Assembly (NCBI GenBank): GCA_026874595.1 | Contig: CM049306.1 | Coordinates: 6,753,519 to 6,817,518 of the forward strand | Reading direction: 5' to 3' | Length of the DNA: 64,000 nucleotides | Origin: Sipunculus nudus | Taxonomy: Eukaryota; Annelida; Sipuncula; Golfingiida; Sipunculidae | Shown: in pieces, positions 30,036 through 59,931 of the stretch | Position numbering within the stretch: position 1 is the first letter of the stretch | Layout: each line of letters starts with the position of its first letter | Position numbers and translations under genes: made by a program | The notes under the pieces: generated by a model | What the model was told of the DNA's origin: nothing | Seen by the model: only the letters and a program-made list of their open reading frames with translations | Database searches by the model: none

Positions 30036-30187
30036 AAAGAGCTGAGAGATCATGTCAGAGAAAGCAGAGATTCAGAATGGCCCCAAAGAGAATGGGGATA
30101 AGAAGGGTTTGCTGGACCAACAAAACCACAATGAATACCCACCAGAGCCAGTACTCCCCAACAAAAATAAAAACTACTCTGAGAAAG
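30036..30187 (+). CDS. SLC29A: Transporter exon 1 (first coding)
   Basis: The acceptor TTTTGCTTTCAG ends at 30035. Sixteen UTR bases precede the ATG at 30052. It codes for 45 residues of polar N-terminal tail and ends phase 1 at AAAG with donor GTAAGC (30188). This donor region is the first unit of the 41-bp array that follows. Confidence 0.9.
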
Positions 30188-33100
30188 GTAAGCATTCACC
30201 AAAAAAACATAATCACTACTCTCAGAAAGGTGAGTACCCACCAATAAACATAATAACTACCCTCAGAAATTGAGTACCCACCAACAAACATAATCACTAC
30301 TCTCAGAAAGGTGAGTACCCACAAACAAACATAAAAAATACACTCAGAAAGGTGAGTACTCACCAACCAACATAATCACTACTCTCAGAAAGGTGAGTAC
30401 CCACCAACAAACATAATAAATACTCTCAGAAAGGTGAGTACCCACCAACAAACATAATCACTACTCTCGGAAAGGTGAGTACCAACCAACAAACATAATA
30501 AATACTGTCAGAAAGGTGAGTACCCACCAACAAACTTAATCACTACTCTCAGAAACCTGGGTACTCACCAACAAACATAATCACTACTCTCAGAAAGGTG
30601 AGTACCCACCAACAAATATAATCACTTCTCTCAGAAAGGTGAGTACACTCCAACAAACATAATCACTACTCTCTGAAAGGTGAGTACTCACCATCAACAA
30701 ACATAATAAATACTCTCAGAAAGGTGAGTACCAACCAACAAACATAATAAATACTGTCAGAAAGGTGAGTACACTCCAACAAACATAATCACTACTCTTG
30801 AAAGGTGTGTACTCACCACCAACAAACATAATAAATACTCTCAGAAGGGTGAGTACCCACCAACAAACTTAATCACTACTCTCAGAAACCTGGGTACTCA
30901 CCAACAAACATAATCACTACTCTCAGAAAGGTGAGTACCCACCAACAAACAATAAATACTCTCAGAAAGGTGAGTACCCACCAATAACATAATCACTACT
31001 CTCATAAAGCTAAGTACTCACCAACAAACATAATAACTACTCTCAGAAAGGTGAGTACAGAATATTCTGAAACTTACCATAACTTACCCAATAGATTGTC
31101 TGATTCGGGTTCAATTATAGGCAAAATCCATACATTTTAATGAGGTCACAGGCTACTTTACGGTGTCGCCGCAATAACTAACCAGGAATATGATTTTTTT
31201 TTTAAGAAATTAAACAGAAATATTAACCATTATATCTCAACTCGGTTCTATTCCTGGCAAAAGGTATGCAGATTTGAGGTCAGAGGTCACCAGACTGGTT
31301 GCGTTCTAACGCATACCAAAATTCTGATGCATTCTCATAATTACCAAAATTAAATTTTTAGCAAACCCATGCATATGTGAGGGGGGGGAGAGTATTATGC
31401 ACCTTTGCCGTGCTCTTGTTTTCTGTGTGTGTTTTATTTTTTTTTTTTTTTTTTTTTCAGAATGGTAACTGAACATTTCAAAATATCTTAAAATTCTTAA
31501 TGTCTTTAAAACAAAATGGCTAAAGCATGAGATTATCATTCACATTTTGATGCAGACATCACACTAGTATTGTGACAATAAATTATTTGTATTTTTTTCT
31601 ATTAGATTTTTTGCCTTTTCTTACTAACTCCCTTTTATACAGTGCTGACATGTTCATTGTTTGTTGCCTCTAACTACTGTGGTGACATCTGTTGACAGAG
31701 AAGGAAGCTAACGGAGAGGGGCATGGTTTGTTAGAAGATGGCAAGGTGCTAATTAAACCTTTGGACGAGTCACAAGCGCCAAATGACAGGTAATAATTAC
31801 TTATCACACTAATCATTGATTCTCTATTGGAGTCTGTTTATGTGTGGCATTTTATGATGATTACTTTTTGAGTAAATTCACTTACTGGCCAAAATTCCTT
31901 ATAACAAAACTATCTTCATTTCTGAATTTTAAAGTATCTTGTAAAATGATGTGGCGATATAATTGAAATTGACATGATTTTAATATCTTTGTTGACCAGA
32001 AGTTAATATTTTCACTGGTTTTACCTAGTGTTCCTGGTGGTTAAATTGTCAGGAGCTGAGTGAATTCTGTGTAACATTAGAATATCAGGGTATTTCTGGT
32101 TGTTGCTTGTAGAGATGAGTGCATTCTGTGTAACATTAGAACATCAGGGTGTTTCTGGTTGTTGCTTGTAGAGATGAGTGCATTCTGTGTAACATTTGAA
32201 CATCAGGGTGTTTCTGGTTGTTGCTTGTAGAGATGAGTGCATTCTGTGTAACATTAGAACATCAGGGTATTTCTGGTTGTTGCTTGTAGAGATGAGTGCA
32301 TTCTGTGTAACATTAGAACACCAGGGCATTTCTGGTTGTTGCTTGTAGAGATGAGTGCATTCTGTGTAACATTAGAACACCAGGGTATTTCTGGTTGTTG
32401 CTTGTAGAGATGAGTGCATTCTGTGTAACATTAGAACACCAGGGTATTTCTAGTTGTTGCTTGTAGAGATGAGTGCATTCTGTGTAACATTAGAACATCA
32501 GGGTATTTCTGGTTGTTGCTTGTAGAGATGAGTGCATTCTGTGTAACATTAGAACACCAGGGTATTTCTGGTTGTTGCTTGTAGAGACGAGTGCATTCTG
32601 TGTAACATTAGAACACCAGGGTATTTCTGGTTGTTGCTTGTAGAGACGAGTGGATTCTGTGTAACATTAGAACATCAGGGTGTTTCTGGTTGTTGCTTGT
32701 AGAGATGTGTGCCTTCTGTGTAACATTAGAATATCAGGGTATTTCTGGTTGTTGCTTGTAGAGATGAATGCATTCTGTGTAACATTAGAACATCAGGGTA
32801 TTTCTGGTTGTTGCTTGTAGAGATGAATGCATTCTGTGTAACATTAGAACATCAGGGTATTTCTGGTTGTTGCTTGTAGAGATGAGTGCATTCTGTGTAA
32901 CATTAGAACATCAGGGCATTTTTAGTTGTTGCTTGTAGAGATGAGTGCATTCTGTGTAACATTAGAACATCAGGGTATTTCTGGTTGTTGCTTGTAGAGA
33001 TGAGTGCATTCTGTGTAACATTAGAACATCAGGGTATTTCTGGTTGTTGCTTGTAGAGATGAGTGCATTCTGTGTAACATTAGAACATCAGGGTATTTCT

Positions 33101-36100
33101 AGTTGTTGCTTGTAGAGATGAGTGCATTCTGTGTAATATTAGAACATCAGGGTATTTCTGGTTGTTGCTTGTAGAGATAAGTGCATTCTGTGTAACATTA
33201 GAACACCAGGGTATTTCTGGTTGTAGAGATGAGTGCATTCTGTGTAACATTAGAATATCAGGGTATTTCTGGTTGTTGCTTGTAGAGATGAGTGCATTCT
33301 GTTTAACATTAGAACATCGGGGTATTTCTGGTTGTTGCTTGTAGAGATGAGTGCATTCTGTGTAACATTAGAACATCAGGGTATTTCTGGTTGTTGCTTG
33401 TAGAGATGAGTGCATTCTGTGTAATTGTTGTTCTGTTGTTTGTAGATTCCTGCTGGTTTACCTGATCATGATGCTCAATGGGGTGGCCATCTTGATGCCG
33501 TGGAACATGTTTATCACTGCCACAGGGGTAAGTAACAGGAAATACAATATGTAGCAACAAGAGTGACAGCTCTAAGTGAAATAGTACAGAGACACATGGA
33601 ATAGAAATTACTGTTCAGGGATTGATCCACAAAATAATATACTGATATATACAGATTGATTCAGAGGGAAAAGTGTTTAGTTCTAATATCAGTTTTTTTA
33701 AGTGATTGTTGATTGTATTTAGTTGCATATATTTAATACCTAAAGGAAGTATATGGAATGTTAATGAATGAAATGTATAACTGCTAAAAGAAATGGTTTT
33801 TGACTCTTAATATGTAAATCCAGAAAACTTGAGAATTTGTTTTTGGTTTTCAAGTGTCACTATGATGCAAGGGAAATATTCTTATTTTCATCATTTCATT
33901 TCAGTATTTCACAGAAAAATTATCCACTAAAGATGGGAAACCTACTGAATACAAAGATAATTACCTGAGCTATCTTGGGATTGCTGCTCAGTTGCCAAAT
34001 GTCATCCTCAACTTGATCAATGTGTTTGCTCATTGTGGGGCGTAAGTAAACACTCAATTTACCATTGACACAGAGTGATGAGTACAATTAAATCCTCATA
34101 AAAATTAAATGTGTGAAGTATCTGTTCTTTTCTAATGGAATGGGTTTTTAGCTCAGCTGACTGAAAGTCATCTGAGCTATAGCGATCACTCTTTGTCCGT
34201 CGTCCGTCTGTCCGTCCGTTAACCAGGCACAAATCGTAATCGCTGAACCTAGAACCTTGTAACTTGGGATTCTGAGAGGTCCATGAAAAATCTCCTTGGA
34301 AACCAGAAATTAGGTCTCTGTTACCCATATCCTTCGAGCTATGGGGCCCCAAAGTACCCCCCAGAAAAGTCAAAAATTTCATACAAAAACTCCAATATCT
34401 CATTAACTACTTGACTGATGGTCATGATTTTTGGCATACATATTGATCATGAGATGTTCCATCAGTTCCTGCAGACTGGTGGCGCCACCTATATTTTTTG
34501 ATTTTTTACAAATTTTTTTCTCTATTTTTGAGACCTTTAAAAATGTGAACATCTGTTAACAAGGCACAAATCGTTAAGCCTAGACCTAGAATCTTAATTC
34601 TTGATACACTGAGAGGTCCATGAAAAATCTCCATGGAAACCAGAAATTAGGTCTCTGTTACCCATATCCTTCGAGCTATGGGGCCCCAAAGTACCCCCCA
34701 GAATAGTAAAAAATTTCATACAAAAACTTCAATATCTCAATAACTACAACACTGATGGTCATGATTTTTGGCATACATATTGATCATGAGATGTTCCATA
34801 AGTTCCTGCAGACTGGTGGCGCCACCTGTATTTTTGATTTTTTAGCTCAGCTGACTTTCAGTCATGCTGAGCTATAGCCATCACTCTTTGTCCGTCGTCC
34901 GTCTGTCCGTCCGTCTGTCCGTTAACCTGGCACAAATCGTAACCGCTGGACTTAGAATCTTGTAACTTTACATTCTGAGAGGTCAATGAAAAATCTCCTT
35001 GGAAACGAGAAATTAGGTCTCTGTTACCCATATCCTTCGAGCTATTTGGCCCCAAAGTACCCCCCAGAATAGTAAAAAATTTCATACAAAAACTTTAATA
35101 TCTCATTAACTACATCACTGATGATTATGATTTTTGGCATACATATTTATCATGAGATGTTCCATCAGTTCCTGCAGACTGGTGGCGCCACCTGTATTTT
35201 AAGATTTTTTACGAATTTTTTTCTCTATTTTTGAGACCTTTAAAAATGTGAACAACTGTTAACACGGCACAAATTGTAAAGACTGGACCTAGAATCTTCA
35301 TTCTTGACACAGTGAGTGACCTATAAAAAGTCTCCATGGAAACCAGAAATTAGGTCTCTGTTACCCAAATCCTTTGAGCTATGGGGCCCCAAAGTACCCC
35401 CCAGAATAGTGAAAAATTGTACAGGGTACAAATTGTAATGACTTGACCTAGAATCTTTATTCTTGACACACAGGGAGACCCATGAAAAGTCTCCATGGAC
35501 ACCTGAAATTAGGTCTCTGTTACCCATATCATTTGAGCTATGGCACTCTAAAGTACAGCTCGGAATAATGGAACATTTGATACAAAAGCTGAAGTATCTG
35601 AACAACTAATGCAGAGATCACCATAATTGTGTGCATGGATATTGATCATTGAGTGTTTCATCAGTTTTTGCAGAATGGTGGCACCACCTGTATTTGTTTG
35701 GGTTTTTTTACAATTTTTTTCTCCATTTTTGAGACCATTAAAGATATGAACATCTGTTTACAGGGCACAATTCATAACAATTGGACCTAGAATCTTCATT
35801 CTTGATGCATAGGGAGACCCATGAAAAGGACCCACCTCTATTTTGTTTTTTAAAGTTTAGGCATTTTTTCTCTATTTTTGAGATATATAAATACAGACAT
35901 AATCTTAACCTTTTGGTTAATCTGTTTGATGCTTCAGTTGAATGGTTATATACTACCATTCAGATCATAAAATTTCCTTTTGCAAATCTCTCACCATTCA
36001 GCTGAGCGTCATGACCCATGGGTCACTTGTTTACAATTTTTTCCTCTATTTTTGAGACGTTTAAAGATGCTGTCATCTGTTTATGTGGCACAAATCGTAA

Positions 36101-39100
36101 CCGCTGGACCTAGAATCTTCATTCTCGACACACTGAGAAACCTATTAAAAGTCTCTGTGGAAACCATAAATTAGATCTCTGTTACCCATATCCTTCGAGC
36201 TATGGGGCCCCAAAGTACCCCCCAGAAAAGTCAAAAATTTCATACAAAAACTTCAATATCTCATTAACTACTTGACTGATGGTCATCAATTTTGGCATAC
36301 ATATTGATCATGAGATGTTCCATCACTTCCTGCAGACTGGTGGCGCCACCTGAATTTTTCGATTTTTTACGAATTTAAAAATGTGAACAGCTGTTAACAG
36401 GGCACAAATCATAAGACTGGACCTAGAATCTTCATTCTTGACACACTGAGAGGTCCTTAAAAAGTCTGCATGGAGCCCTGAAATAAGGTCTCTGTTACCC
36501 ATATCCTTTGAGCTATGGGGGGCTCCCAATAACCCCCCAGAATAATGGAAAATTTGATAAAAACAAACTGCAACATCTCAATAACTACAACACTGATGGT
36601 CATGATTTTTGGCATACATATTGATCAAGAGGTGTTTTATCAGTACCTGCAGACTGGTGGTGCCACCTGTATTTTTTCAAATTTTCACAATTTTTTTTTC
36701 TCTATTTTCGAGACCTTTAAAGTTATGAACATCTGTTAACAGGGTACAAATCGTAAGGACTGGACCTAGAATCTTCATTGTTGACACACAGGGAGACCCA
36801 TGAAAAGTCTCCATGGAAACCTGAAATTAGGTCTCTGTTACCCATATTCTTTAAGCTGTATAGCTCCAAATTACCCCCCAGAATAATGGAAAATTTGATA
36901 CAAAAACTGCAGTATCTCAATAACTACAACACTGATGGTCATGATTTTCGGCATACATCTTGATCATGACCTGTTCCATCAGTTTCTGCAGACTGGGTGT
37001 GCCACCTCTATTTTTTTCAAATTTTTACGATTTTTTTTCTCTTTTTTTGATACCTTTAAAGATGTGGTTATCTGTCAACAGGGTACAAATCGCAACAACT
37101 GGACCTAGAATCTTCATTCTTGTCATGCAAGAAGGCCCATGAAAAGTGCCTGTGGAAACTTAAAATTAGGTCTCTGTTACCCATATCCTTCAAGCTATAG
37201 GACTCCGAAGTATCCCTCAGAATAATGGACAATTTGATACAAAAGCTGAAGTATCTGAACAACTAATGGGGAGATCACCATGATTCTTTGCACGGATATT
37301 GATGTTTGTAAGTGTTTTTATTAGTTTCTGCAGACTGGTGGAGCCACCTGTATTTTTGTACCTGCCAAAACGAAGTTTTGTGGATACTATGTTTTTGACC
37401 GGGTTCCTCCGCCGTTGCCGCGTTCGTTTCCAGAGAGTACCTCTGGGACTTGATTTTATCAGCTTTCCAAGCTCATATCTCGGGAACCATTTGACTGATC
37501 AGGAAATAAAATTTATACTAATGTAGCCCTTGGATAGCTCCATAACATACACAAAAAATGGTGGCGCCACCTCTAGCCATGTTTGCACAGTGTCCATCTG
37601 TTCATCTGCCTTTGGTTAAAATCACTCATATCTCTGCAGTGAATTGACTAATTCACCTGAAATTCGGCATGCGTATACATCCTGGATAGCTTTCTTGATT
37701 TTATGACAGGTGGCGCCACCTACATTCTCATTCACGCTGATGACATCCAAGCTCATATTTCGGGAACCGTTTGACCGATTGGGCCAAAATTTTGCATGTA
37801 TATAGATCTAACATAGCTCTTTATCATACACTAAACTGGTGGCGCCACCTGCAACCATTTTTGCACAGTGTCTGTCTGTTTGTCTGCCGTACAATAATGT
37901 CACTCATATCTCGGCAGTGGTTTGACATATCTGCCTAAAATTTTGCAGTTTTATACATCCTGGGTAGCTTTCTTGATTTTATGACAGGTGGCACCACCTA
38001 CATTCACGTTCACGCTGATGACATCCAAGCTCATATCTCGGGAACCGTTTGACGGATCGGGCCAAAATTTTGCATGTGTATAGATCTAACATAGCTCTTT
38101 ATCATACACAAAACTGGTGGCACCACCTGCAACCATTTTTGCACAGTGTCTGTCTGTTTGTCTGCCGTGCAATAAAGTCACTCACATCTTGGCAGTGGTT
38201 TGACATATCTGCCTAAAATTTTGCAGTTTTATACATCCTGGATAGCTTTCTTGATTTTATGACAGGTGGCGCCAGCTTTATTCTAGTTTATGCTGCAGAC
38301 ATCCAAGCTCATATCTCGGGAACCGTTTGAACGATTGGGCCAAAATTTTGCATGTGTTTAGATCTCACATAGGTCTTTATCATACACAAAACTGGTGGCA
38401 CCACCTGCAACCATTTTTGCACAGCGTCTGTCTGTTGGTCTGCAGTGGCCTAAAATCACTCATTTCTCTGTAGAGGTTTCACATAACTGCCTAAAATCTT
38501 GCAGGTTTATACATCCTGGATAGCTTTCTTGATTTTATGACAGGTGGCGCCACCTACATTCTAGTTAACGCTGCACACATCCAAGCTAATATCTCAGGAA
38601 CCATTTGACCGATTGGGCCAAAATTGTGCTTGTGTTTAGATCTCACATAGGTCTTTATCATACACAAAACTGCAACCATTTTTGCACAGCGTCTGTCTGT
38701 TTGTCTGCCGTGGGCTAAAATCACTCATATCCATGTAGTGGTTTCACTTTTCTGCCTAAAATTTTGCATATGTATACAACTTGGACAGCTTTCTGGATTT
38801 GTGGTAGGTTGCACAACCTACATACACATTTAGGCTGCAGACATCCATGCTAATATGCAACATACCTCACTCTGTTTCCCCTTGCCACTCAATCCATGCC
38901 TCACTTCACTCTGATTTTGGCAGATACACGTAGTCACTTGTCGGCTACCCGTATTCTAGTTTTTAAAGTTTACACATTTTTTCTCTTTTTTTCAGATATA
39001 TAAATACAGACTAAATCTTGGCCTGTTGGTTAATCTGTTTGATGCTTCAGTTGAATGGGTATCTACCATTCTGATGATAAAATTTCCTTTTGTGAATCTC

Positions 39101-42100: not shown

Positions 42101-45100
42101 CTTTATGTTTTTGAGACTTCTGGAAGTTGCAGCAAAGCTGGGCCTTCAATATCCTTCAGTTATAAAACAAATTCTTTTCTCTTTAAGGGCCTGGGACCTT
42201 TTTTGCCATCACCATGGTTACAGTTGTCATCATTAATAGTAAGTTTCATCTTCTTCCTTTCTAATGTTTTCATATTTTTTATATTGCTTAATGTTCATTA
42301 ACTTTGCTGTAATCAAGCACTGTATTAGTTAAGAGCATGTAGTTATATTACAGGTTAACTTATTCTTATTAAGTATTTGAACACAATAATTTCATAAAAT
42401 AATTTTATTAAATATATGGGGAATTTTTTTGTATTCTTACTGTAATCATTGATAATTAAGTTCTGTGTTACATGTATTTAGTACATTTGCTGACCATTTT
42501 GTATGTCTAAATCTTTTGAGGTAAATCAGCCTTTTGATATTTTGTTTTTCAGTGGCTAATGGTGTGTACCAGAACTGTGTGTATGGTATGGCAGCTGGTC
42601 TTCCCATGAAGTACACTAATGCTGTTGTCCTTGGATCAGTAAGTGGGTCCTCTATGATTGACAGGCTGATTGACAGGCTGATTGACAGGCTCACTGTACC
42701 TTGTGCCACTAACCCTGTCTGTTCATTCTCAACAAATTTTATAACTGCTCTACGGATCAAGTGTTTATTACACTTTTCATAAGAGTGGAGCTTGGCGAGT
42801 AATACTCTCCCTTGTATGAATTCCTTTATGTGAATTTGAAATAAAGTATGACAGAACAGTCTATTGTATTGCACCATTTCACTGACAGAACCGGCTATTG
42901 TAATGCACCATTTTACTGACAGAACAGTGTATTGTAATGCACCATATACTGACAGCCTGATAATAATAACCATCTCTTTTCTTTCCAGAACCTTAGTGGT
43001 ACTATCACATCTGTCGTCGCCATCCTGTCTCTGGCTTGTAAGTATATATGCATAAATCCTGTCATATTTTAAAGTTGATATATATAATAATTAGTTGTTG
43101 AAGTAAACATAAATCAGTGTATAAGAGTCTATTTCCTGATGATCTTCATTGTGGCTTTTTATGTGAAACCCACATCACAGAATCCACAGATAGTGTCACA
43201 ATGGAGACCATGGGCCAAAATACTTTAATTCCGATTATAGAGTAAGAATTGGTTGCGTTAGATATTCAAAGATATGATCTCTGAATTTTAACTGGCTACA
43301 TATGTTAAAATATGTTGAAAATTGTTTGTATGGGAAGCAGCCAGTAAAATGCTTTTGACTGATCCATCACAATTCTGAAATTTGAGGTTGTCCACTTATA
43401 AAGCTACCAGTCTTTGCGGAGAATTTATTTTCTACCAAGTATTATATGAAGTTTTTTCTTGAATACTTCTTCAAGTGTCTTTTGAACAGAGGTGCCTATT
43501 TGTAAATTTATGTTGTATATATGTTTTGCTCACTTATGAAACTGGGAAATCCTATAATTCACTGAACAAGTGAAAAAATGTGTAATAGATCTCTGTGTAT
43601 GTGTACAGGTTTGATTGATTACCTAATTAATTTAACTGATTTTACCTTGTATTATTTTAACTTCAGTTGCTCCAACTGCTCGCACAGCAGCCATATACTA
43701 CTTCCTGTCTGCCATCTTTATGTTGCTCGTAGCCTTTGACACCTACTTTGCGCTGCCACTGATAGTAAGTATGACATAGCAAACAACAAAGCAAAGCTTT
43801 TATTAATAATCCAGTAACTGCTGTAGTTATTTTCCCAAATGAATTACAGTTACTTAAAACGGAAATAAAATATTCAGAGGGAAGTCTAATGTGTGTAGTT
43901 TAAGGATGAAGGGAAGCATATTATTATTCATTTTAATTGTAGATGTTTGGTGCGTCTGTCTGTCCCTCTGGATTAGCTTGTGTACAGATTGTAATCCAGG
44001 CTGTCTGACCAAAACCTTTTCATCTTTCACATATGTCTTAGATGTGTCTTTCACACCCACAGATGAAGAACCAGATCAATTTTGGGGTCAAAGCCACTGG
44101 ACCCACTTCTTGTGGACCCATTTCAAGCCAAACCCTCTGACTAAACCCTTTCTGTCTTTCACATATGGCTCACCAACCCACCCACAGGTGAAGAACCCTT
44201 TTGATTTAAGGTCAAAGGTCAAGGCCACAGGACCCACTTCTTTGAAAAATCTTGTGGATCCATTTTAAGCCAAACTATTTGACCAAAACCTTTCAACTGA
44301 CACATATGGCTCACCCACCCAAGGATGAAGAACCCTATTGAGTTAAGGTCACAGGGTCAAAAGTCATGGTCACAGAACTGCCCTCCTCCTTTTCACACTG
44401 TAATACACCCAGTATAATTATGCTTCCCTGCAAGGTGAAGCTCTGCTTTGCGGTACCATTGTTTAAAAAACTGTTGCACCAGTTAATAAACTTCATAGGA
44501 ACTGTGATTTTGAGTTATTGTTGCTGTGACATCTGATATAAAGAATTTTATATTGCCTCTCTGTACATATTACATAGGTTTGTATATTACTTAAACTCCT
44601 ACCTGGCTTGTTTATATCTTACCTTAACTAGTACATTTGCCTGGCCAAAGCTATTACCTAGGTTTGTGTTTAGCTGGCCTATTGCAGGACCTGGCTTTGT
44701 ATAATACCTGTGTTTATTAAGGTGAGTTTCATTGTACAATAACCTGTCGTTTGTATTCCAGCCTTTCTTTCGGTTCTACAAACAGCGGGCCACCGCCCAT
44801 CATGATGACACACCAGCGGCAACACAGACGAGACCTCCTTTTTTGAAAATTTTCAAGCAGGTAGTGTTGTAAATGTTTTACTTGTACAAGTCTAGTTGGT
44901 TTGCTCTAGAGTAATTAAGACATAAATGTAATGCTAAAGTTTTGTAAATTTGAGGTGTAAAATGTATGTCGTTAAATATATATATATATGTTTGTTTTAC
45001 TGAATAAGGTATTAATGAAAAGGGGTTTCCCAGATCCAGTCATCAGAGAAATTGGGGAAACTAGAAAATAATTTTTTCATTTTTACTAGTCAGGGAAAAT

Positions 45101-51100: not shown

Positions 51101-54100
51101 ATGAAAATCTTCATTTTTCCATTAAAAACCCATTGTAACACTTTAAGACTGTCTAATATCAAAACCACTGATCTGACTTTGATCATATATAATATACATA
51201 TTTTTCTATACATTCGCTATGCACATGCCAGAAATGATGTCAGCATTGCGTAATTGTTTTAAGTTATTGGCCCAAACAAAATGCACTTTTTAAAAAATCA
51301 AGAAATATATTTACTCCCTTAACAAGAGGATTGCTGAAGCTAGAGATTTGTTGTCAGGGATGTAACATTATTTAATCAAGATTCAATTGAATACCCAAAA
51401 TTAGTTCTGAATTTTTCAAATTTTATAAGTTATTAGTATAAATATAAAATTAGTACCTTAAATTTTGCCCAACTTTGACCATGGCACGTTTGTTTCATGA
51501 GAGCACTGTTGATATAATTTTTATATCATGCACACATAAGGATTTCATCTTTGTAGTTTAGAAAGCTGAAAGAAATTGGCAAAATATTGTAGCTTTTATT
51601 AATGTTTTAATGAGACTATGTCAGACCCAGGCTAGCTAGCCCCTCTTCAGTCACCTGTATGTTGACCTTGTTGACCTTTCATCAAATTATGCATGCTTGA
51701 GGCAAGATATACACTGGGCCAGCCAGGCAGCTAATGCCCAGCCACAGTTTATCAAGGTGTCTAACCCAACTCATCTAATAGTTGTTTTGAAAAACAACAA
51801 TAAACAATAATTTAAAAATTTATATTGGTTTTTAATAAAAAATTAAAGAAAATATTAATTGAAAGGAATTTGTAAGTTGATGAGTAACAGAAAATTAACA
51901 TGCAGTTACTGATGATGTAAGAATCTTGTATGGATGGATAGAATGTTAATGTCAGTGTTATTCCAAATAACACCATGCAGTCACCTATGGTATTTTTTAG
52001 TTCAATTTTAATGATAAAAAAAAATAAATCATATTATTCATTACTAATCATTAGGGATCATATGAAGGAAATTAATGATAGACAAAGATGCAGTTGATAA
52101 TATTAATCTAGATTCCTGCTGTGTCTAGTGTGTAGATTGATGTGAAAGTAGTCCAAAGTTAATATATTAATTTATTTTTTATGCCCCCGCCACAAAGTGG
52201 CCGGGGCATATAGTTTTACCCATGTCTGTCCTTCCGTCATTCCGAAATCAAACAGTTGTACGGACTTTTTTTCGCAATGCCTGCAGATATTGGTCTGATT
52301 TTTGGTGTGTGGGCAGATAATGACCAGTTACAGATCAAGTCCACGTTTCGTCCCGGTTGACCTACTTTTGACCGTTTTCCGGCTCCTAAACTTAGAAAAT
52401 TTCATGAAAAATAGAAATTTTCATGACAAATACACATGTACGGACTTTTTTTCGCAATGCCTGGAGATATTGGCCTGATTTTTGGTGTGTGGGCAGATAA
52501 TGACCAGTTACAGATCGAGTTCGCGTTTCGTCCCGGTTGACCTACTTTTCACCGTTTTACGGCTCCTAAACTTAGAAAATTTCATGAAAAATAGAAATTT
52601 TCATGACAAATACACATGAACGGACTTTTTTTCGCAATGCCTGCAGATATTGGCCAGTTTTTTAGTGTGTGGGCAAATAATGACCAGTTACAGATCGAGT
52701 TCCCGTTTCGTGGCAGTTGACCTACTTTTGACCGTTTTACAGCTCCTAAACTTAGAAAATTTCATGAAAAATAGAAATTTTCATGACAAATACACATGTA
52801 CCGACTTTTTTTCGCAATGCCTGGAGATATTGGCCTGATTTTTTGGTGTGTGGGCAGATAATGACCAGTTACAGATCGAGTTTGCGTTTCGTGGCAGTTG
52901 ACCTATTTTTGACCGTTTTACGGCTCCTAAACTTAGAAAATTTCATGAAAAACAGAAATTTTCATGACAAATACACATGTATGGACTTTTTTTCGCAATG
53001 CCTGCAGATATTGGCCTGATTTTTGGTGTGTCGGCAGATATAGACCAGTTACAGATCAAGTTCGCGTTTTGTCCCAGTTGACCTACTTTTAACCACTTTA
53101 CGGCTCCTGAACATAGAAAATTTCATGAAAAATATCAACTTTCATGACAAATACATATGTACAGACTTTTTTTTCGCAGTGCCTGCAGATATTGGCCTGA
53201 TTTTTGGTGTGTGGGCAGATAATGACCAGTTACAGATTGAGTTAATGTTTCTTTCCAGTTGACCTACTTTTGACTGTTTTACGGCACCTATTTTTGACCA
53301 TATGACAGATCCTGAACATAAAAAATTTCATGAAAGACAGAAATTTTTATGTAAAATGCACATGTATGGACTTTTTTCACAATGCCTGCAGATAATGGCC
53401 TGATTTTTGGTGTGTTGCTTGATAATGACCTGTTACAAATCAAGTTTGCATTTTGCCCTTGTTGACCTACTTTTGACCATACGACACCTCCTGAACTTAA
53501 AAAATTTTTCAAAATTTAACAAATGTTTCTAATTTGCCCCAGGCGGGGGCATTCGTGTCCTTCCGACACATCTAGTTCCTCATATTTACCATAAACATTC
53601 CTCTATATAGTTCCTATGTACATGCGGGAAATAAGGTCTGTATTATATAATATAAAAAGGTTATGGGCTCAAACATAATGCATTTTGTAAAAAATCAGGA
53701 AATATATTTGATCTCTTAACTCAAAATATGTTAAAACTAAGGACTTTTTTTCCAGTATTATAACTTTAATTAATCAAAATTAAATTGTATACCCAAAATT
53801 AGATCAAAATCTTTTAAATTTGTTTTAAATATTAGCAAAAATAAATAATTGGTACCTTAAATTTTGCCCAACTTTAGCCATGGCACGTTTTTTTCCTGTA
53901 AGTACTGTGGATTTAATTTTCACAGCATGTGCACATAAGGATTTAATCTGTTACAATCTGATATTTGAAAATAAAAGCTGCAAAATAAGGTTAGTTATTA
54001 AATTTTTTTTTTAGGCTCTTGTTGTATTCCCTTACATTGTCAAGCAGTCCACTTTGGTCAATGTAGGTCATTCAGTGCAGCTCTCTATGCTCCCTAGCTA

Positions 54101-57100
54101 GGCTGCTGGCATAATGTTATGCAATCCCATCACTAGGGCAAGCCCTCTCTGGATAGAGTTGAGCTTGATCAGGCTGTCTGCAGTTAATACCATATCACAG
54201 GGAGCCTTTTTCTCTCCCCCTTCCCCCCTCACCCCATTCTGTTGACAGACCTGTACTATGAACTAGATGAATCTTAAGATTAAATTTTTTTCAGCAACGA
54301 GCAGTAACAATGGAAACCTCTCTCCCCCCCCCCCCCCACCCACCCCTTTAATACACAAGACTTATAAACAAGATGAATCTTATAATTTTAATGTTAAATA
54401 AATTCTTTTTGATTAGACTTGGACAATTTTGATTTTTTTTTAAGAAAACAATTTCGGGAATTTAATCCTAATATTCAAATGTTATAAAATATTAGGATCT
54501 AATGTAAGTGCTAACTGACAAGATTTAAAAAGATATAAATACTTTGTAGCATTTCATTCATATCTCTTAAAGTTAGCAGGGCCTAGGTGTGAATAACACC
54601 GTTAACTTTGTATTAGAATTAGGAATATTGGTCAAACATCGGATTAATTTTTAACTCATATGGCCATATATTTAACTTTTGAAAACTTAATTACCTTCAC
54701 ACATCATTTGTTTATGAAATGTTACTTTTATATAACACTTACCATAGGCCTATTTGTTCCCTTGGTGCATCACTAAATGGTTTAGCTCATGTCCATTATT
54801 CTATAATTTACAGAGTTTCATTTAAGCAGGGCCATTTTCTCATAGCTTTTCCAAAGAAAATATACATGAAAAACCAAAAGAAATAAAAATATTTTGCAGT
54901 TGACCAAAGGCTTCATGTAGTTGAAGTGGTTGCCACAGAAATGAATTCATAATTTAATTTAATTTTGACATAACGTGATGGAAATGTCATGAGAGTATAA
55001 AAGGTAATGATAAATGCTGTTAAGTTCTTTTTTAAAAATTCAGGATTGGTCCCTTCGTTTAAAACCTGAATGATATTGCATCCACCTGGTCCAGAAGAAA
55101 ACATCTTATAAATCTTTGGAGAGAATAAAGCTTGGCTTATGTTTTGTTTCTTTCTTTCAGCCTGGACCTCGCTTGGTGTGGCTTCCTGTCGTTCTGCGGC
55201 TCCTCTTCATCCCGTTCTTCATGCTGTGTAACTTCCGCCCATACACGGGTAGTATACCCGTGTTGATCATATGTTTTGTTTGTTTCAGCCTGGACCTCGC
55301 TGAGTGTGGCTTCCCGTTGTTCTGCGGCTCCTATTCATCCCATTCTTCATGCTGTGTAACTTTCTTCCGTACATGCGTAGTATACCTGTGTTGATCGTAT
55401 GTTTTGTTTGTTTCAGCCTGGACCTCGCTGGGTGTGGCTTCCCTTCGTTCTGCGGCTCCTCTTCATCCAGTTCTTCATGCTGTGTAACTTCCACCCGTAC
55501 ACGCCTAGTATACCCGTGTTGATCGTATGTTTTGTTTGTTTCAGCCTGGACCTCGCAGGGTGTGGCTTCCCGTCGTTTTGCGGCTCCTCTTCATCCCGTT
55601 CTTCATGCTATGTAACTTTTGCCCGTACATGCGTAGTATACCCATGTTGATTGTATGTTTTGTTTGTTTCAGCCTGGACCTCGCTGGGTGTGGCTTCCCG
55701 TCGTTCTGCGGCTCCTCTTCATTCCATTCTTCATGCTGTGTAACTTCCGCCCGTACACGCGTAGTATACCCGTGTTGATTGACAACGACTATGTGTACAT
55801 GGCGGGCGTCATCCTGATGGCCTTTACCAGCGGCTACTTCAGCAGTCTGGCGATGATGTATGCTCCAGGGTAAGATATTAAATTGGTACACTCAAATACA
55901 CTAAAACTTGTTGTGTCCAAGGTGAAGAGACCTGCAGAAAGTTGTGACACATGCAGGTTTTATTTTATAGTAATTTAACTACAACTTGACAAACAACGAG
56001 CTTGAAACTTTGACACAAGGGAGGTTTATAGCTTAAAAGAGTTGACACAATGACATTTTACTGTATGATGACGTTCTCTTTGTTTGTTAATTGGATATAT
56101 TTGTATATAAGTGTAAAACTGTATCTACAGCTCTATGTAGGTTGAATGTTTATTAATTTAGACCATTGTTAATAAAGGTGTAATCCTCATTGGGCATGTT
56201 TTCTTAACAATTACATTGAATCAGAGGAAATCACCATCAGTAAAGTAGAAATTAAAATAGCAGATCAGAAGTCATTATTAATATATTGCTATTGAATTTG
56301 ACCAAATTGTTCTCTATGTAAAACAAATTAGGTGTTTGAACAGATGATACAGCGTAATGTAGAGAGCACACACAGTAAATTTCTACATTCATTGAACTGC
56401 CAGTTTTATTAGCTCAGCTGACTAAAAGTCATCTGAGCTATAGTCATTGTCTGTCGTCCGTCCATCTGTCCGTAGATGTCGCACGTTTTGAAACCGTAAG
56501 ACCTATGAATAAAAAAATTCAGCATAATGTTAGATGTTCCCAAGATCTCCTACCAAGCCGAAAACTGGGTCTTTGCGACTTCGTTCCTTTGAGAAATTAA
56601 GGAAAAACCTCAATTTTTTATTAAAAACCTATTTTCACACTTCAGGACTGCCTGATATCGAAACCACTCATCTGTTTTTCTTCATATTTACCATAAATAT
56701 TCCTTTATATAGTTCCTATGTAAATGCCAGAAATTAGGTCTGTATTATATACTTTTAAAAAAAATTTGAGCTCAAACAATGCATTTTGTAAAAAATCAGG
56801 AAAGATATTTGATCACTTAACACAAACTTGTTAAAGTTAAGGACGTTTTTTCCAGAAATATAATTATAATTAATCAAAATTAAATTTTATACCTAAAATC
56901 AGATCAAAATCTTTTAAATTTAAAAAAAATATTACAAAAATAAAAAATTTGTACCTTAAATTTTGCTCAACTTTGGCCACGGCACGTTTTTTACCTGTAA
57001 GTACTGTGGATATAATTTTATGAGGCTCTTGTTGTATTCCCTTGCATTGTCAAGCAGTCCACTTATGGTGACTGTAGGTCATTCAGTGCAGCTCACTATG

Positions 57101-59931
57101 CTCCCTATCTAGGTTGCTGGCATAATGTTATGCAATCCCATCACTAGGGCAAGCCCTCTCTGGATAGAGTTGAGCTTGATCAGGCTGTCTGCAGTTAATA
57201 CCATATCACAGGGAGCCTTTTTCCCTCCCCCTTCACCCCATTCTGTTGACAGACCTATACTATGAACTAGATGAATCTTAAAATTAACATTTTTTTCAGC
57301 AACAAGCAGTAACAACGGAGACTTGAACAATTTTGATTTTCTTAAAGAAAAAAATGTTCAGGAATTTAATCCTAATATTCAAATGTGATAAAATATTAGG
57401 ATCTAATGTAAGTGCTAACTGACAAGATTTAAGAAGATATAAATACTTTGTAGCATTTCATTCTTATCTCTTAAAGCTGGCGGGGCCTAGGTGTGAATAA
57501 CACTGTTAACTTAGTATTAAAATTAGGAATATTGGTCAGACTTTGTGGGATTAATTTTTAACTCATATGGCCATATATTTAACTTTTGAAAACTTAATTA
57601 CCTTCACACATAATTTGTCTATGAAATGTTACTTTTATATAACACTTACCGTATGCCCATTTTTTCCCTTGGTGCATCACTAAATGGTTTAGCTCATGTC
57701 CATTATTCTATCATTTACAGAGTTTCATTTTAGCAGGGCCATTTTCTCATAGCTTTTCAAATGATAATATACATGAAAAACCAAAAGAAATAAAAAAATT
57801 TTCCAAAATTCAGCTGAGCGATGTGACCCATGGGTCCCTTGTTTTCACTGGATCCCTCCACCATGTAATTATTATACATACTGTAATTTAATTCATGTCT
57901 TGAAATTCCTTATCAATATGTGATTATTGTATCCGCCAAAACAGAGTTTTGCGGATACTATGTTTTCAGCTGCATGCCGCCGCTGCGTAGGTTTCCGGAG
58001 AACTCCTCTGTAACCGCTGGGCGGAATTTTACGAAACCCGGGATTATGTTCGGGTCACATGTGAACTGCTGCGCCCCAATTTTGTTTTGACCTCTGACCT
58101 TTCCTCTGCGCTCTGTGTCCGTTTGTGCGTCTGTTTCCACACATAAACCCACATATCTCGGGAACCGTTTGACGGATCAGGAAAATTTTTTTGCACAAAT
58201 GTAGCCCTTGGAGAGCTTTATAACATACACAAAAAATGGTGGCGCCACCTGCAACCATGTTTGCACAGTGTCCATCTGTTCGTCTGCCTTGGGTTAAAAT
58301 CACTCATATCTCTGCAGTGACTTGACTAATTCACCTGAAATTTGGCATGCGTATACATCCTGGATAGCTTTTCTGATTTTGTGACAGGTGGCAACCACCT
58401 ACATTCACGTTTACGCTGCAGACATCCAAGCTCATATCTCGGGAACCGTTTGACCGATCAGGAAAATTTTTTTACACAAATGTAGCCCTTGGAGAGCTTT
58501 ATAACATACACAAAAAATGGTGGCGCCACCTGCAACCATGTTTGCACAGTGTCCATCTGTTTGTCTGCCTTGGGTTAAAATCACTCATATCTCTGCAGTG
58601 ACTTGACTAATTCACCTGAAATTTGGCATGCGTATACATCCTGGATAGCTTTTCTGATTTTGTGACAGGTGGCACCACCTACATTCACGTTTACGCTGCA
58701 GACATCCAAGCTCATATCTCGGGAACCGTTTGACCGATCAGGAAAATTTTTTTGCACAAATGTAGCCCTTGGAGAGCTTTATTACATACACAAAAAATGG
58801 TGGCGCCACCTGCAACCATGTTTGCACAGTGTCCATCTGTTTGTCTGCTTTGGGTTAAAATCACTCATATCTCTGCAGTGACTTGACTAATTCACCTGAA
58901 ATTCGGCATGCCTATACATCCTGGATAGCTTTTCTGATTTTATGACAGGTGGCGCCACCTACATTCACGTTTACGCTGCAGACATCCAAGCTCATTTCTC
59001 GGGAACCGTTTGACCGATCAGGAAAATTTTTTTGCACAAATGTAGCCCTTGGAGAGCTTTATAACATATGCAAAACTGGTGGTGCCACCTGCAGCCATTT
59101 TTGCACAGCTCCTGTCTGTTTGTCTGCCATGGGATAAAATCACTCATATCTCGGCAGTGGTTTGACATATCTGGCTAAAATTTTGCAGGTTTATACATCC
59201 CCGACAGCTCTCTTGATTTTATGACAAGTGGAGCCACCTGCATTCTAGTTTATGCAGCAGACATCCAAGCTCATATCTTGGGAACCGTTTGAACGATTGG
59301 GCCAAAATTTTGCATGTGTATAGTTCTCACAATGCTCTTTATCATACGCAAAACTGGTGCCGTCACCTGCAACCATTTTTACTCAGCGTCCATCTGATTG
59401 TCTGCCACGGGCTAAAATCACTCATATACATGTAGTGGTTTGACTTATCTGCCTTAAATTTTGCATATGTATACAACTTGGACGGCTTTCTGGATTTTGT
59501 AGTAGGGGGGGGGGGCAACCTTCATACACAATTTGGCTGCAGACATCCATGCTAATATGCAACACTTCAGTCTATTTCCCCTTGCCACTTAATCCATGCC
59601 TCACTTCACCCGTTCCACTCTGATTTAGGCGGATACACGTAGTCGCTTGTCGACTACCCGTATTCTAGTTCCATATGTAATGAACGTTGATTTTTTTTTT
59701 TTCAGGAAAGTTGAACCTCAGCACCAGGGCATTGCTGGAATGATGGCTGCCTTCTTCCTAATTCTTGGCATATTTTGTGGAGTTAACTTCTCACTAGTGA
59801 TTGCAAAAATCGCCACCTATGGAGCGCCATACTATGAGAGACCTCTAGCAAATGGGACGCTCTTTAACGTTACAGCAACGCCTGCACTTGCCAAGTTCAC
59901 CACAACATTTTCTGAGCGCACAACCTTATAG
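30052..59931 (+). CDS. SLC29A: Equilibrative nucleoside transporter (ENT1-like), 14 coding exons, 511 residues
   Basis: ENTs move nucleosides down their gradient across the plasma or organelle membrane. The exons join in phase to 1536 nt including the stop. Landmarks: a hydrophilic N-terminus of about 76 residues; TM1 (77-99) with PWN at 94-96; TM2 about 120-145; TM3 about 153-176; TM4 with NGVYQNCVYGMAAGLP (200-215), keeping the Gln of the human substrate site; TM5-TM6 to 272; a short cytoplasmic loop 273-308; TM7 from 309; TM8 346-369; TM9 with LRLLFIPFFMLCN; TM10; TM11 with GIAGMMAAFFLILGIFCGV; and a tail to 511 with NGT (486) and NVT (491). Human ENT1 is 456 residues. Odd: TM8 reads FNAFAMFGN where human ENT1 has FNIFDWLGR, so the family's Asp and Arg are missing. 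Three junctions lie in tandem arrays. The family call is firm; the paralogue is not. Confidence 0.93.
30165..31060 (+). repeat. 41-bp minisatellite built from the exon 1 splice donor, about 22 units
   Basis: The first unit is the 3' end of exon 1 and its donor (CTACTCTGAGAAAGGTAAGC). Later units read CTACTCTCAGAAAGGTGAGT plus ACCCACCAACAAACATAAT. About 15 units keep AAAGGTGAGT, a strong consensus 5' splice site; a few have it destroyed (CCTGGGT, ATTGAGT, GCTAAGT). The unit is 41 bases, so each step changes phase by two, and the exon 1 frame meets TGA at 30271. Use of any downstream donor would therefore truncate the protein. Confidence 0.92.
31060..31698 (+). other. Rest of intron 1
   Basis: Non-coding. 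It contains a G run (31381-31388) and a long T run (about 31437-31457) on the transcribed strand, and ends with the acceptor TGTTGACAG. Confidence 0.7.
31699..31789 (+). CDS. SLC29A: Transporter exon 2
   Basis: 91 nt between acceptor GTTGACAG and donor GTAATA (31790). It completes Glu46 and codes for the rest of the hydrophilic N-terminus, ending in PNDR just before TM1. Enters at phase 1, leaves at phase 2. Confidence 0.88.
32050..33425 (+). repeat. 59-bp minisatellite carrying acceptor-like sequence, about 23 units
   Basis: The unit is GAGATGAGTGCATTCTGTGT, AACATTAGAACATCAGGGTA and TTTCTGGTTGTTGCTTGTA. Each unit holds a T-rich tract and TAG (TTGTTGCTTGTAG), a plausible 3' splice site. The array ends about 20 bases before the true exon 3 acceptor, which looks like a diverged unit (TTGTTCTGTTGTTTGTAG). 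One unit at about 33210 has lost six bases. Confidence 0.92.
33446..33527 (+). CDS. SLC29A: Transporter exon 3 (TM1)
   Basis: 82 nt. It codes for RFLLVYLIMMLNGVAILMPW and onward to FITATG, the first membrane helix with the ENT-typical PWN. Donor GTAAGT at 33528. Leaves at phase 0. Confidence 0.93.
33905..34041 (+). CDS. SLC29A: Transporter exon 4 (first extracellular loop and TM2)
   Basis: 137 nt after acceptor CATTTCATTTCAG. It codes for YFTEKLSTKDGKPTEY, a short loop, then LSYLGIAAQLPNVILNLINV (TM2). The loop is much shorter than in human ENT1 and has no N-glycosylation sequon. Donor GTAAGT at 34042, phase 2. Confidence 0.93.
34844..36031 (+). mobile_element. Family C element nested inside the outer family C element
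   Basis: A full 5' end (TTAGCTCAGCTGACTTTCAG) appears in the middle of a repeat unit after GTATTTTTGATTTT. The matching 3' end with TGACCCATGGGTCACTTGTT is at 36010-36031. Directly after it the interrupted unit continues (TACAATTTTTTCCTCTATTT), so the boundaries are clear and the target was a T run. Confidence 0.8.
37357..38961 (+). mobile_element. Family A HINE-like element, copy 3, nested in family C
   Basis: It begins TGTACCTGCCAAAACGAAGT with TGTGGATACT, has half-units with GGTGGCGCCACC, and ends with TTTTGGCAGATACACGTAGT, a slightly decayed hairpin, and CGTATTCTAGTT. Flanking sequence on both sides is family C. Confidence 0.8.
39485..39579 (+). CDS. SLC29A: Transporter exon 5 (TM3)
   Basis: 95 nt between acceptor TGATGACAG and donor GTGAGT (39580). 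Together with the phase-2 end of exon 4 it codes for AGSLSIRIIVSIIIVLLMFI and VTVILAMVDSSG, the third helix, and leaves one base that forms Trp181 with exon 6. It sits between two repeat elements and has no open frame with its own ATG on the plus strand, so it is easy to miss. Confidence 0.92.
40067..41955 (+). mobile_element. Family B HINE-like element, copy 2
   Basis: It starts ATGCCCCCGCCACAAAGTGG and GGCATATAGTTTTACC. About ten 180-base units follow, with CAATGCCTGCAGATATTGGC, TTTTTGGTGTGTGG, TTGACCTACTTTTGACC and GAAAATTTCATGAAAAATAG. It ends AAGGCGGGGGCAT, the hairpin TGTGTCGTTCCGACACA and TCTAGTT. The start and the GGCGGGGGCA near the end are inverted copies. Confidence 0.85.
42188..42238 (+). 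CDS. SLC29A: Transporter exon 6 (start of TM4)
   Basis: 51 nt after acceptor TTCTCTTTAAG. It codes for WPGTFFAITMVTVVIIN and leaves one base completing Met198. Donor GTAAGT at 42239. Confidence 0.92.
42553..42638 (+). CDS. SLC29A: Transporter exon 7 (TM4 and start of TM5)
   Basis: 86 nt after acceptor TTGTTTTTCAG. It codes for MANGVYQNCVYGMAAGLPMK and YTNAVVLGS. Gln204 aligns with Gln158 of human ENT1, and Asn200 with the human Gly154 position, which influences inhibitor sensitivity. Donor GTAAGT at 42639, phase 0. Confidence 0.93.
42989..43037 (+). CDS. SLC29A: Transporter exon 8 (TM5)
   Basis: 49 nt after acceptor TTTCTTTCCAG. It codes for NLSGTITSVVAILSLA. Donor GTAAGT at 43038, leaving one base for Phe243. 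Confidence 0.9.
43667..43764 (+). CDS. SLC29A: Transporter exon 9 (TM6)
   Basis: 98 nt after acceptor TTTTAACTTCAG. It codes for FAPTARTAAIYYFLSAIFML and LVAFDTYFALPLI, the sixth helix. Donor GTAAGT at 43765, phase 0. Confidence 0.92.
43905..44463 (+). mobile_element. Family E (HINE-like) repeat in intron 9
   Basis: It starts GAAGGGAAGCATATTATTAT and ends with TATAATTATGCTTCCCTGCA, so the ends are inverted copies. Between them are about four 110-base units with CTTTCACATATGGCTCA and GGTCAAGGCCACAGGACCCA. The units resemble, in reverse orientation, the body of the element at 10200-10936. Confidence 0.65.
44762..44860 (+). CDS. SLC29A: Transporter exon 10 (cytoplasmic loop TM6-TM7)
   Basis: 99 nt, phase 0 to 0. 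It codes for PFFRFYKQRATAHHDDTPAA and TQTRPPFLKIFKQ, a polar loop clearly shorter than the roughly 60-residue loop of human ENT1. Acceptor TTTGTATTCCAG, donor GTAGTG at 44861, the weakest donor of the gene. Confidence 0.9.
45625..45727 (+). CDS. SLC29A: Transporter exon 11 (TM7)
   Basis: 103 nt after acceptor CTTGTTTTCAG. It codes for SWVQCLSVFCVFFVTLTCFP and AIMADIESTEGLLT. The FPA motif after TM7 is typical of ENTs. Donor GTAAAT at 45728, phase 1. Confidence 0.93.
46033..46118 (+). CDS. SLC29A: Transporter exon 12 (TM8, motif residues changed)
   Basis: 86 nt after acceptor CTTCTTTGTAG. It codes for EKYYTPVTCFLFFNAFAMFG and NLATEAIKK. Phe352 and Asn356 match Phe334 and Asn338 of human ENT1, but the Asp341 and Arg345 positions are Ala359 and Asn363. 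Donor GTAAGC at 46119, phase 0. Confidence 0.92.
46290..47070 (-). pseudogene. Fossil non-LTR retrotransposon (LINE), 3' part of the reverse transcriptase ORF
   Basis: On the minus strand, broken frames give KLWQLYPNLINSNVIHFRDR near 46870, then a KYLG-like stretch. After several stops comes RICTSCEDNSVEDEIHFKRS followed by CPKYGEIRKDL (about 46555-46640), the C-x2-C...H-x4-C knuckle often found at the C-terminus of LINE polymerases. There are frameshifts and stops throughout, so it is inactive. Confidence 0.65.
47718..49953. mobile_element. hAT-like non-autonomous transposon
   Basis: The left end TAGTGGTGGACCGATCATCA and right end CGACTCCCACCACTA are inverted repeats. Both ends carry CGATCATCGAT/CGATGATTGATT motifs often seen at hAT termini. 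The flanks GGATTTCA (left) and GGATCTAA (right) look like a diverged 8-bp target duplication, since undisturbed copies of the host repeat read GGATTTAA once. No transposase motif was recognised in the short open frames at 47846-48209. A family I element is inserted inside. Confidence 0.7.
48186..49521 (+). mobile_element. Family I HINE-like element inside the hAT-like transposon
   Basis: It starts TTTTTTAGCCCTCAGCCCTT and has a GTCCGTCCGTCC leader. Four units of about 300 bases follow, beginning TTGTGAGCGGGATATCT, three of them with GGTGGCGCCACC or a close variant. It ends GGCTGAGGGCTTTTG, the hairpin TCAGCTTTTGCTGA and TATTCTAGTT. Start and end are inverted copies. Confidence 0.8.
52181..53577 (+). 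mobile_element. Family B HINE-like element, copy 3
   Basis: It starts ATGCCCCCGCCACAAAGTGG, has about seven 180-base units, and ends CAGGCGGGGGCATTCGTG with a hairpin and TCTAGTT. It interrupts the C' body: the C' sequence TCCTCATATTTACCATAAAC resumes directly after the tail. Confidence 0.85.
55161..55672 (+). repeat. Four upstream copies of the exon 13 acceptor and 5' exon part (128-bp pitch)
   Basis: CCTGGACCTCGC follows TTCAG at 55161, 55289, 55417, 55545 and 55673, an exact 128-base pitch. Each copy codes for the TM9 segment (LRLLFIPFFMLCN in most) and ends near GTGTTGATC before the next polypyrimidine tract and TTTCAG. Since 128 is not a multiple of three, reading from one copy into the next hits TGA at the end of the following copy, so only the fifth copy leads into the rest of the exon. 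Copies differ by a few substitutions each, so they are not simple assembly clones. Copies 2, 3 and 4 also have GTATGT exactly 108 bases after their acceptor. Confidence 0.92.
55673..55869 (+). CDS. SLC29A: Transporter exon 13 (TM9 and TM10)
   Basis: 197 nt starting at the fifth acceptor copy. It codes for PGPRWVWLPVVLRLLFIPFF, MLCNFRPYTRSIPVLIDNDY and on to FTSGYFSSLAMMYAP. This matches TM9-TM10 of ENT1, where LCN and SNGYLASL stand at the same places. Donor GTAAGA at 55870, phase 2. Confidence 0.93.
55870..56409 (+). other. 5' part of intron 13
   Basis: Non-coding; no repeat end or conserved motif seen. Confidence 0.5.
56409..57842 (+). mobile_element. Family C' HINE-like element, complete copy in intron 13
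   Basis: It starts TTAGCTCAGCTGACTAAAAG with a hairpin to AGTCATCTGAGCT. The body matches 24683-26591 and 47080-54910. It ends TTCAGCTGAGCGATGTGACC, then CATGGGTCCCTTGTT. This copy is not interrupted and defines the family's length of about 1.43 kb. Confidence 0.8.
57923..59670 (+). mobile_element. Family A HINE-like element, copy 4, adjoining the last exon
   Basis: It starts ATTGTATCCGCCAAAACAGA. About six half-units with GGTGGCGCCACC or one-base variants follow. It ends TTAGGCGGATACAC, the hairpin GTAGTCGCTTGTCGACTAC and CCGTATTCTAGTT at 59670, only 35 bases before the exon 14 acceptor. A G run lies at 59505-59514. Confidence 0.82.
59706..59931 (+). CDS. SLC29A: Transporter exon 14 (TM11, C-terminal tail, stop)
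   Basis: 226 nt after a 12-base T tract and CAG. It codes for GKVEPQHQGIAGMMAAFFLI and LGIFCGVNFSLVIAKI (TM11), then a tail of about 39 residues with NGT and NVT sequons, ending ERTTL and TAG at 59929-59931. Human ENT1 stops almost directly after TM11. Confidence 0.94.

Follow-up and report, generated by a model that had tools for sequence, protein, structure and literature searches.

Several genes of the genome studied here carry tandem arrays whose repeat unit copies a splice junction. We give a probability of about 70% to the reading that these are minisatellites of the type called mirages in lancelets, local tandem duplication being favoured at 3' splice sites and tolerated since splicing would use the copy attached to the exon body. 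Mirages are said to have been described first in Adh, in 2002. In the window, by which we mean the whole stretch of 64,000 nucleotides that was analysed, an ENT transporter gene has two such arrays. Other genes carry junction arrays too, which ruled out an explanation specific to the ENT gene and suggests that arrays copying junctions are a habit of this genome and not a peculiarity of one gene.

The ENT gene and its arrays

Positions 30052-59931 of the window (+ strand) hold an SLC29/ENT nucleoside transporter gene of 14 exons, with a single intact frame of 511 aa and GT-AG at 26/26 internal junctions, which bears out the gene span proposed by a sequence-only reading of this DNA. When partial joined ENT exons were compared with solved structures, no distinct sequence other than human ENT1 (6ob6) matched at E <= 0.01, and the exon 13 stretch was the top of five PF01733 matches in the whole 1.43-Gb genome (153 contigs). 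The exons and arrays that matter here are the following.

30052..30187, + strand: exon 1, coding from the ATG; its frame and phase agree with those of exon 2 and the exons that follow, and the N-terminal part is without homology support
30150..31058, + strand: 41-bp array, 22.1 copies (TRF), containing the exon 1 donor
32053..33424, + strand: 59-bp array in intron 2, 23.4 copies (TRF), with 21 bp between its end and the exon 3 acceptor
33446..33527, + strand: exon 3, its acceptor (33445/33446) outside the 59-bp array
42849..42955, + strand: 34-bp array, 3.2 copies; lies next to the exon 8 acceptor (42988/42989), 33 bp away on the upstream side, without reaching it
55147..55779, + strand: 128-bp array, 4.9 copies (TRF), containing the exon 13 acceptor
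55673..55869, + strand: exon 13 (PGPRWVWLPVVLRLLF...), starting at the last of five acceptors; placed by PF01733 and ENT1 matches and by frame
59706..59931, + strand: exon 14, in which the coding sequence ends

The 41-bp array opens in exon 1 with a diverged copy, to which the last 38 bp of the exon belong and inside which the donor (30187/30188) lies, so that this junction is indeed multiplied by the 41-bp unit as had been claimed. Where the donor of exon 1 lies, the unit reads AGGT. A donor and frame scan found 17 GTRAG donors in the array. The first, at 30187 (AAAG/GTAAGC, score 7.2), leaves the frame open. The second, 42 nt further on at 30229, scores 7.9, above the first, and is in frame; a variant of the N-terminus longer by 14 residues is therefore possible between window positions 30187 and 30229 through this higher-scoring donor. 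With the remaining 15/17, translation would stop at codon 74.

The exon 13 acceptor (55672/55673) sits in the last copy of the 128-bp array, and here too the claimed multiplication of the junction holds. Four decoy acceptors precede it, with exon starts at 55161, 55289, 55417 and 55545, and a premature stop follows from each of the four. The first decoy scores 6.0, versus 4.6 for the true acceptor. When one site was varied at a time in the frame scan, the frame stayed intact only with donors 1 or 2 of the 17 and with the last of the five exon 13 acceptors. Decoy sites that can match or outscore the true site are a warning for gene predictors.

The third array on which the sequence-only reading relied does not reach its junction. 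Each 59-bp unit has TTGTAG, and the true exon 3 acceptor lies beyond the array, which stops 21 bp short of it and is adjacent only. A DNA search of the genome that skipped very common words gave no other match for the 41-bp, the 59-bp or the 128-bp array, the further matches from the 41-bp search falling downstream of that array, within a dispersed repeat.

Other arrays lie near junctions of this gene family. In the window, a 12-bp unit is repeated three times at 42655-42691, 17 bp past the exon 7 donor. In an ENT paralogue (L017, G000:C3:890000-891499), a 51-bp x9 array at gene-strand positions 296-751, unrelated to the arrays of the window, ends 27 bp upstream of a predicted acceptor, and the exon behind that acceptor looks equivalent to exon 13.

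Junction arrays beyond the window and the role of chance

One reading of the ENT gene is chance by length: the genome may be so rich in arrays that some must fall on junctions. Arrays make up 36.7% of the gene, and by present-day coverage 9.5 of its 26 junctions would be expected inside them and 2/26 are. We did not accept this coverage test as a null: an array enters it as often as it has copies, whereas the junction is older than the array copying it, so that each array should count once. Much of the coverage, moreover, comes from dispersed families common to other loci. The test that the sequence-only reading had put forward as a possible refutation, a comparison with random intronic positions, would mislead for the same reason, since arrays would be over-counted by copy number. 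In the collapsed test, every array is reduced to one unit and the units are placed at random.

The dispersed tandem families have units of about 180, 280 and 302 bp. They lie at 8793-9936, 15204-16863, 37534-38856, 40143-41889, 48269-49358, 52257-53507 and 58152-59500 of the window, and also recur in several of the sampled loci.

Sample 1 comprised 37 pieces (234,007 letters), chosen by convenience from the match lists of chaperonin (PF00118) and SLC6 (PF00209) and including the ENT paralogues. Exons were predicted from profile matches, paralogue cross-matches and splice consensus. The total was 294 junctions, of which 151 are acceptors and 143 are donors; two, in L005, were added by hand. With a cut-off of at least 2.5 copies and a TRF score of at least 150, there were 15 local arrays, L005/L006 being counted as one. 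Acceptors are spanned by arrays in L012, L019, L020, L022, L027, L031 and L033, and donors by those in L032 and L005/L006; the arrays in L013, L017, L023 and L025 and second arrays in L022 and L031 span no junction. L019 had been chosen because tandem rows were visible in it, and it was left out of the statistics. Its SLC6 paralogues L023 and L024, on the same chromosome, have no array at the matching exon, from which it appears that arrays come and go.

Without L019, 8/14 local arrays contain a junction, compared to 1.38 expected on unmasked sequence (P = 1e-5), 1.59 with dispersed repeats masked (P = 1e-5) and 2.12 with masking and units taken at x1.4 (P = 2.3e-4). Two of these cases are doubtful: the L005 exon was added after the array had been seen, and the L032 unit had one match elsewhere. 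Taking L005 as non-spanning leaves 7/14 (P = 1.3e-4), dropping L032 as well leaves 6/13 versus 1.22 expected (P = 3.6e-4), and removing both with units at x1.4 leaves 6/13 versus up to 1.6 (P = 2.1e-3). The excess of junction arrays on collapsed sequence in this sample is thus about 4-6 fold.

The P450 family had been considered as a sample and was set aside, its list being headed by uninterrupted full-length matches (intronless genes). Positions 1-242 of L022 hold a 41-bp x6 array, with unit TTTTCCAG then AAGTCATAC, that resembles the predicted acceptor and first exon bases 98 bp downstream; this array is perhaps a decayed mirage.

Sample 2 consisted of 94 of the 96 stop-free kinesin matches with 250-bp flanks, for which the calling rule was fixed beforehand; homology and splice consensus served to predict 94 acceptors and 91 donors in them. 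The mechanical calls were L081 (strict) and L093 and L125 (lax), all of them acceptors. Two more strict calls, L064 and L072, both acceptors, departed from that rule and were made by eye: in L064 the mechanical call had missed the true acceptor, which lies further upstream, within the array, and in L072 diverged copies extend past the TRF span. Strictly counted, 3/94 pieces have a junction array versus 0.30 expected (P = 0.0036, two of the three by eye), and laxly counted 5/94 versus 0.49 (P = 0.00016, two of the five by eye). The mechanical calls alone give 1 strict (P = 0.26) and 3 lax (P = 0.014). If exon flanks were 2.5 times richer in arrays, P would be 0.041 strict and 0.0084 lax, and with mechanical calls alone under the same assumption 0.53 and 0.13. 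Sample 2 supports sample 1, more weakly on the mechanical calls, and leans on reading by eye.

That the arrays go beyond chance fails by present-day coverage and stands by the collapsed count in other genes. Chance by length could accommodate the mechanical strict calls of sample 2 (1 versus 0.30), but it is distinctly unlikely given the collapsed excess in sample 1. Of the two explanations given by the sequence-only reading, a preference of new repeats for splice junctions in this genome finds support in sample 1, with 8/14 arrays versus 1.4-2.1 expected, and sample 2 points in the same direction, less strongly when called mechanically. The sequence-only reading also called three such arrays in one gene unusual. 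Only two truly span a junction; at the sampled rates the ENT gene would be expected to hold 0.70 junction arrays, with a probability of 0.155 for two or more on 26 junctions, and the gene is not exceptional in this respect.

When both samples are pooled without L019, arrays lie on 11/242 acceptors and 2/231 donors (Fisher P = 0.021). The bias toward acceptors has P = 0.28 in sample 1 and 0.059 in sample 2 and is not significant in either alone.

Two observations concern other loci. Nine uninterrupted chaperonin frames of 547 codons and equal score lie on the small contigs C61, C62, C66, C72, C73, C75, C89 and C99 of G000, two of them on C89; they are probably bacterial sequence in the assembly, from a symbiont or a contaminant. 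I-type lysozyme (destabilase) has 11 matches in the genome, and G000:C13:40146841-40231407 holds a cluster of its exon matches, for which the best solved-structure match is 8bbu ('Lysozyme'). We take 8bbu to be a leech lysozyme and 2dqa a clam lysozyme.

Birth, survival and selection

We envisage that a short tandem duplication arises with a unit that would span an exon-intron boundary, its exonic part ranging from a few bp to about 100 bp and some intron making up the rest. The resulting array could then expand and be homogenised via slippage or unequal exchange. Splicing would take the copy directly joined to the body of the exon, that is, the first donor or the last acceptor, as exon definition would favour. 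With the exon-body copy in use and the protein thereby unchanged, the array should be nearly neutral. The excess would have its origin in a mutational bias, with births more frequent at exon ends and most of all at 3' splice sites; selection for redundant sites would not be its cause. Microhomology at the breakpoints, judged by eye, is suggestive in L020 and L027, and none is clear at exon 13.

The main rival places the bias in survival: births would be uniform, and arrays that are anchored in an exon or adjoin one would be deleted less often than those deep in introns. Consistent with it, local arrays also occur in the 250-bp exon flanks of sample 2 without spanning the junction (L043, L085, L090, L096, L112 and L113). 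Biased survival does not readily explain an excess of acceptors over donors, however, and copies of junction arrays would presumably be lost as freely as others. We regard it as unlikely, if the most serious of the alternatives.

Selection that maintains redundant or tunable splice sites was the other explanation offered by the sequence-only reading. The second exon 1 donor, which has the higher score and would lengthen the protein by 14 aa in frame, is what such selection might favour. Across ten acceptor arrays, among them those of L019 and L072, decoy AGs are kept in 45/49 cases compared to 2706/3439 for other dinucleotides, with a nominal P of 0.013, but the comparison is biased because a working AG cannot change; measured against the decoy consensus, AG columns deviate in 4/95 cases versus 273/3213 elsewhere, so that AGs are not clearly better kept. 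As an argument for selection we set this conservation of decoys aside, since it is both biased and too weak. Similarity within units is 0.885 in the intron part and 0.882 in the exon part, and in the 41-bp units the GT (G 82%, T 100%) is conserved no better than neighbouring positions. Early stops from 15/17 donors and 4/5 exon 13 acceptors make decoys a potential cost. There is no good evidence of selection on the decoys, and this explanation is very unlikely.

An assembly artefact, in which collapsed or mis-joined reads produce false tandem copies, has a precedent in a lancelet draft that mis-assembled one such array (PMC3087553). The copies here are about 3-29% off the working copy, the unit is distinct in each array, and several independent loci are involved, all of which makes an artefact hardly credible.

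Within the preferred reading of biased birth, a bolder version may be offered tentatively; it is possible and falls short of probable. The 3' splice sites would be mutational hot spots for the birth of minisatellites, with about 4-5% of acceptors, several times the share of donors, carrying an array grown from the site. Local duplications would be made there by some process linked with transcription, with splicing or with the polypyrimidine tract, and would feed new exons and introns, in animals remote from lancelets. If it is true that a few per cent of the acceptors of another animal are affected, the rate of tandem duplication at 3' splice sites could be measured as that of a mutational process, and a part played by it in intron gain, exon birth and variable splicing could be tested directly.

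Comparison with known systems

The sequence-only reading knew of no described system of this kind, and the mirages of lancelets are one. In two papers (PMC3087553, PMC3902484), mirages are described as repeats resembling minisatellites that copy intron-exon boundaries, whether 5' or 3', many with AG/GT. They are reported gene by gene, in Adh3, the globins BflGb6 and BflGb9, troponin C and PGBD5. Splicing was regular by RT-PCR and the length of the repeats was unstable, differing between haplotypes and even somatically. The literature that we searched, outside whose scope most subscription papers fall, yielded no report of mirages outside lancelets.

The present arrays share the anatomical features of mirages. 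The unit spans the exon-intron boundary in the 41-bp and 128-bp arrays and not in the 59-bp array. Splice signals are kept, as seen in the 17 GTRAG donors of the 41-bp array, the 5 acceptors of the 128-bp array and the 45/49 decoy AGs. Both kinds of boundary are hit, with 1 donor and 1 acceptor in the window and 11 acceptors and 2 donors in the samples (L019 left out). The difference from the lancelet work is that rate and acceptor bias were estimated here over many genes; what appears to be new is this estimate of enrichment, together with the preference for acceptors, in an animal other, in all probability, than a lancelet. As a marker of lancelets, the GFP family gave no match in the genome, which falls short of demonstrating its absence, and the i-type lysozyme matches point away from lancelets too.

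Further systems invite comparison. In intron gain by tandem duplication of AGGT, the new intron is bounded by the two AGGT copies; in the present gene AGGT occurs in the 41-bp unit, at the donor of exon 1. In potato RdRp (PMC4974935), tandem duplication of an intron-exon structure, including the polypyrimidine tract and the 3' site, produced a new intron. Splice signals are likewise multiplied by tandem duplication in the present case, but the arrays sit in existing introns and leave the predicted protein unchanged. CeRep25B of C. elegans is a named minisatellite family near the splice regions of several genes and is associated with alternative splicing (PMC4039745). It resembles the arrays described here in placing a minisatellite close to splice decisions, and it differs in being a family, whereas the present repeats would have grown from the junction itself.
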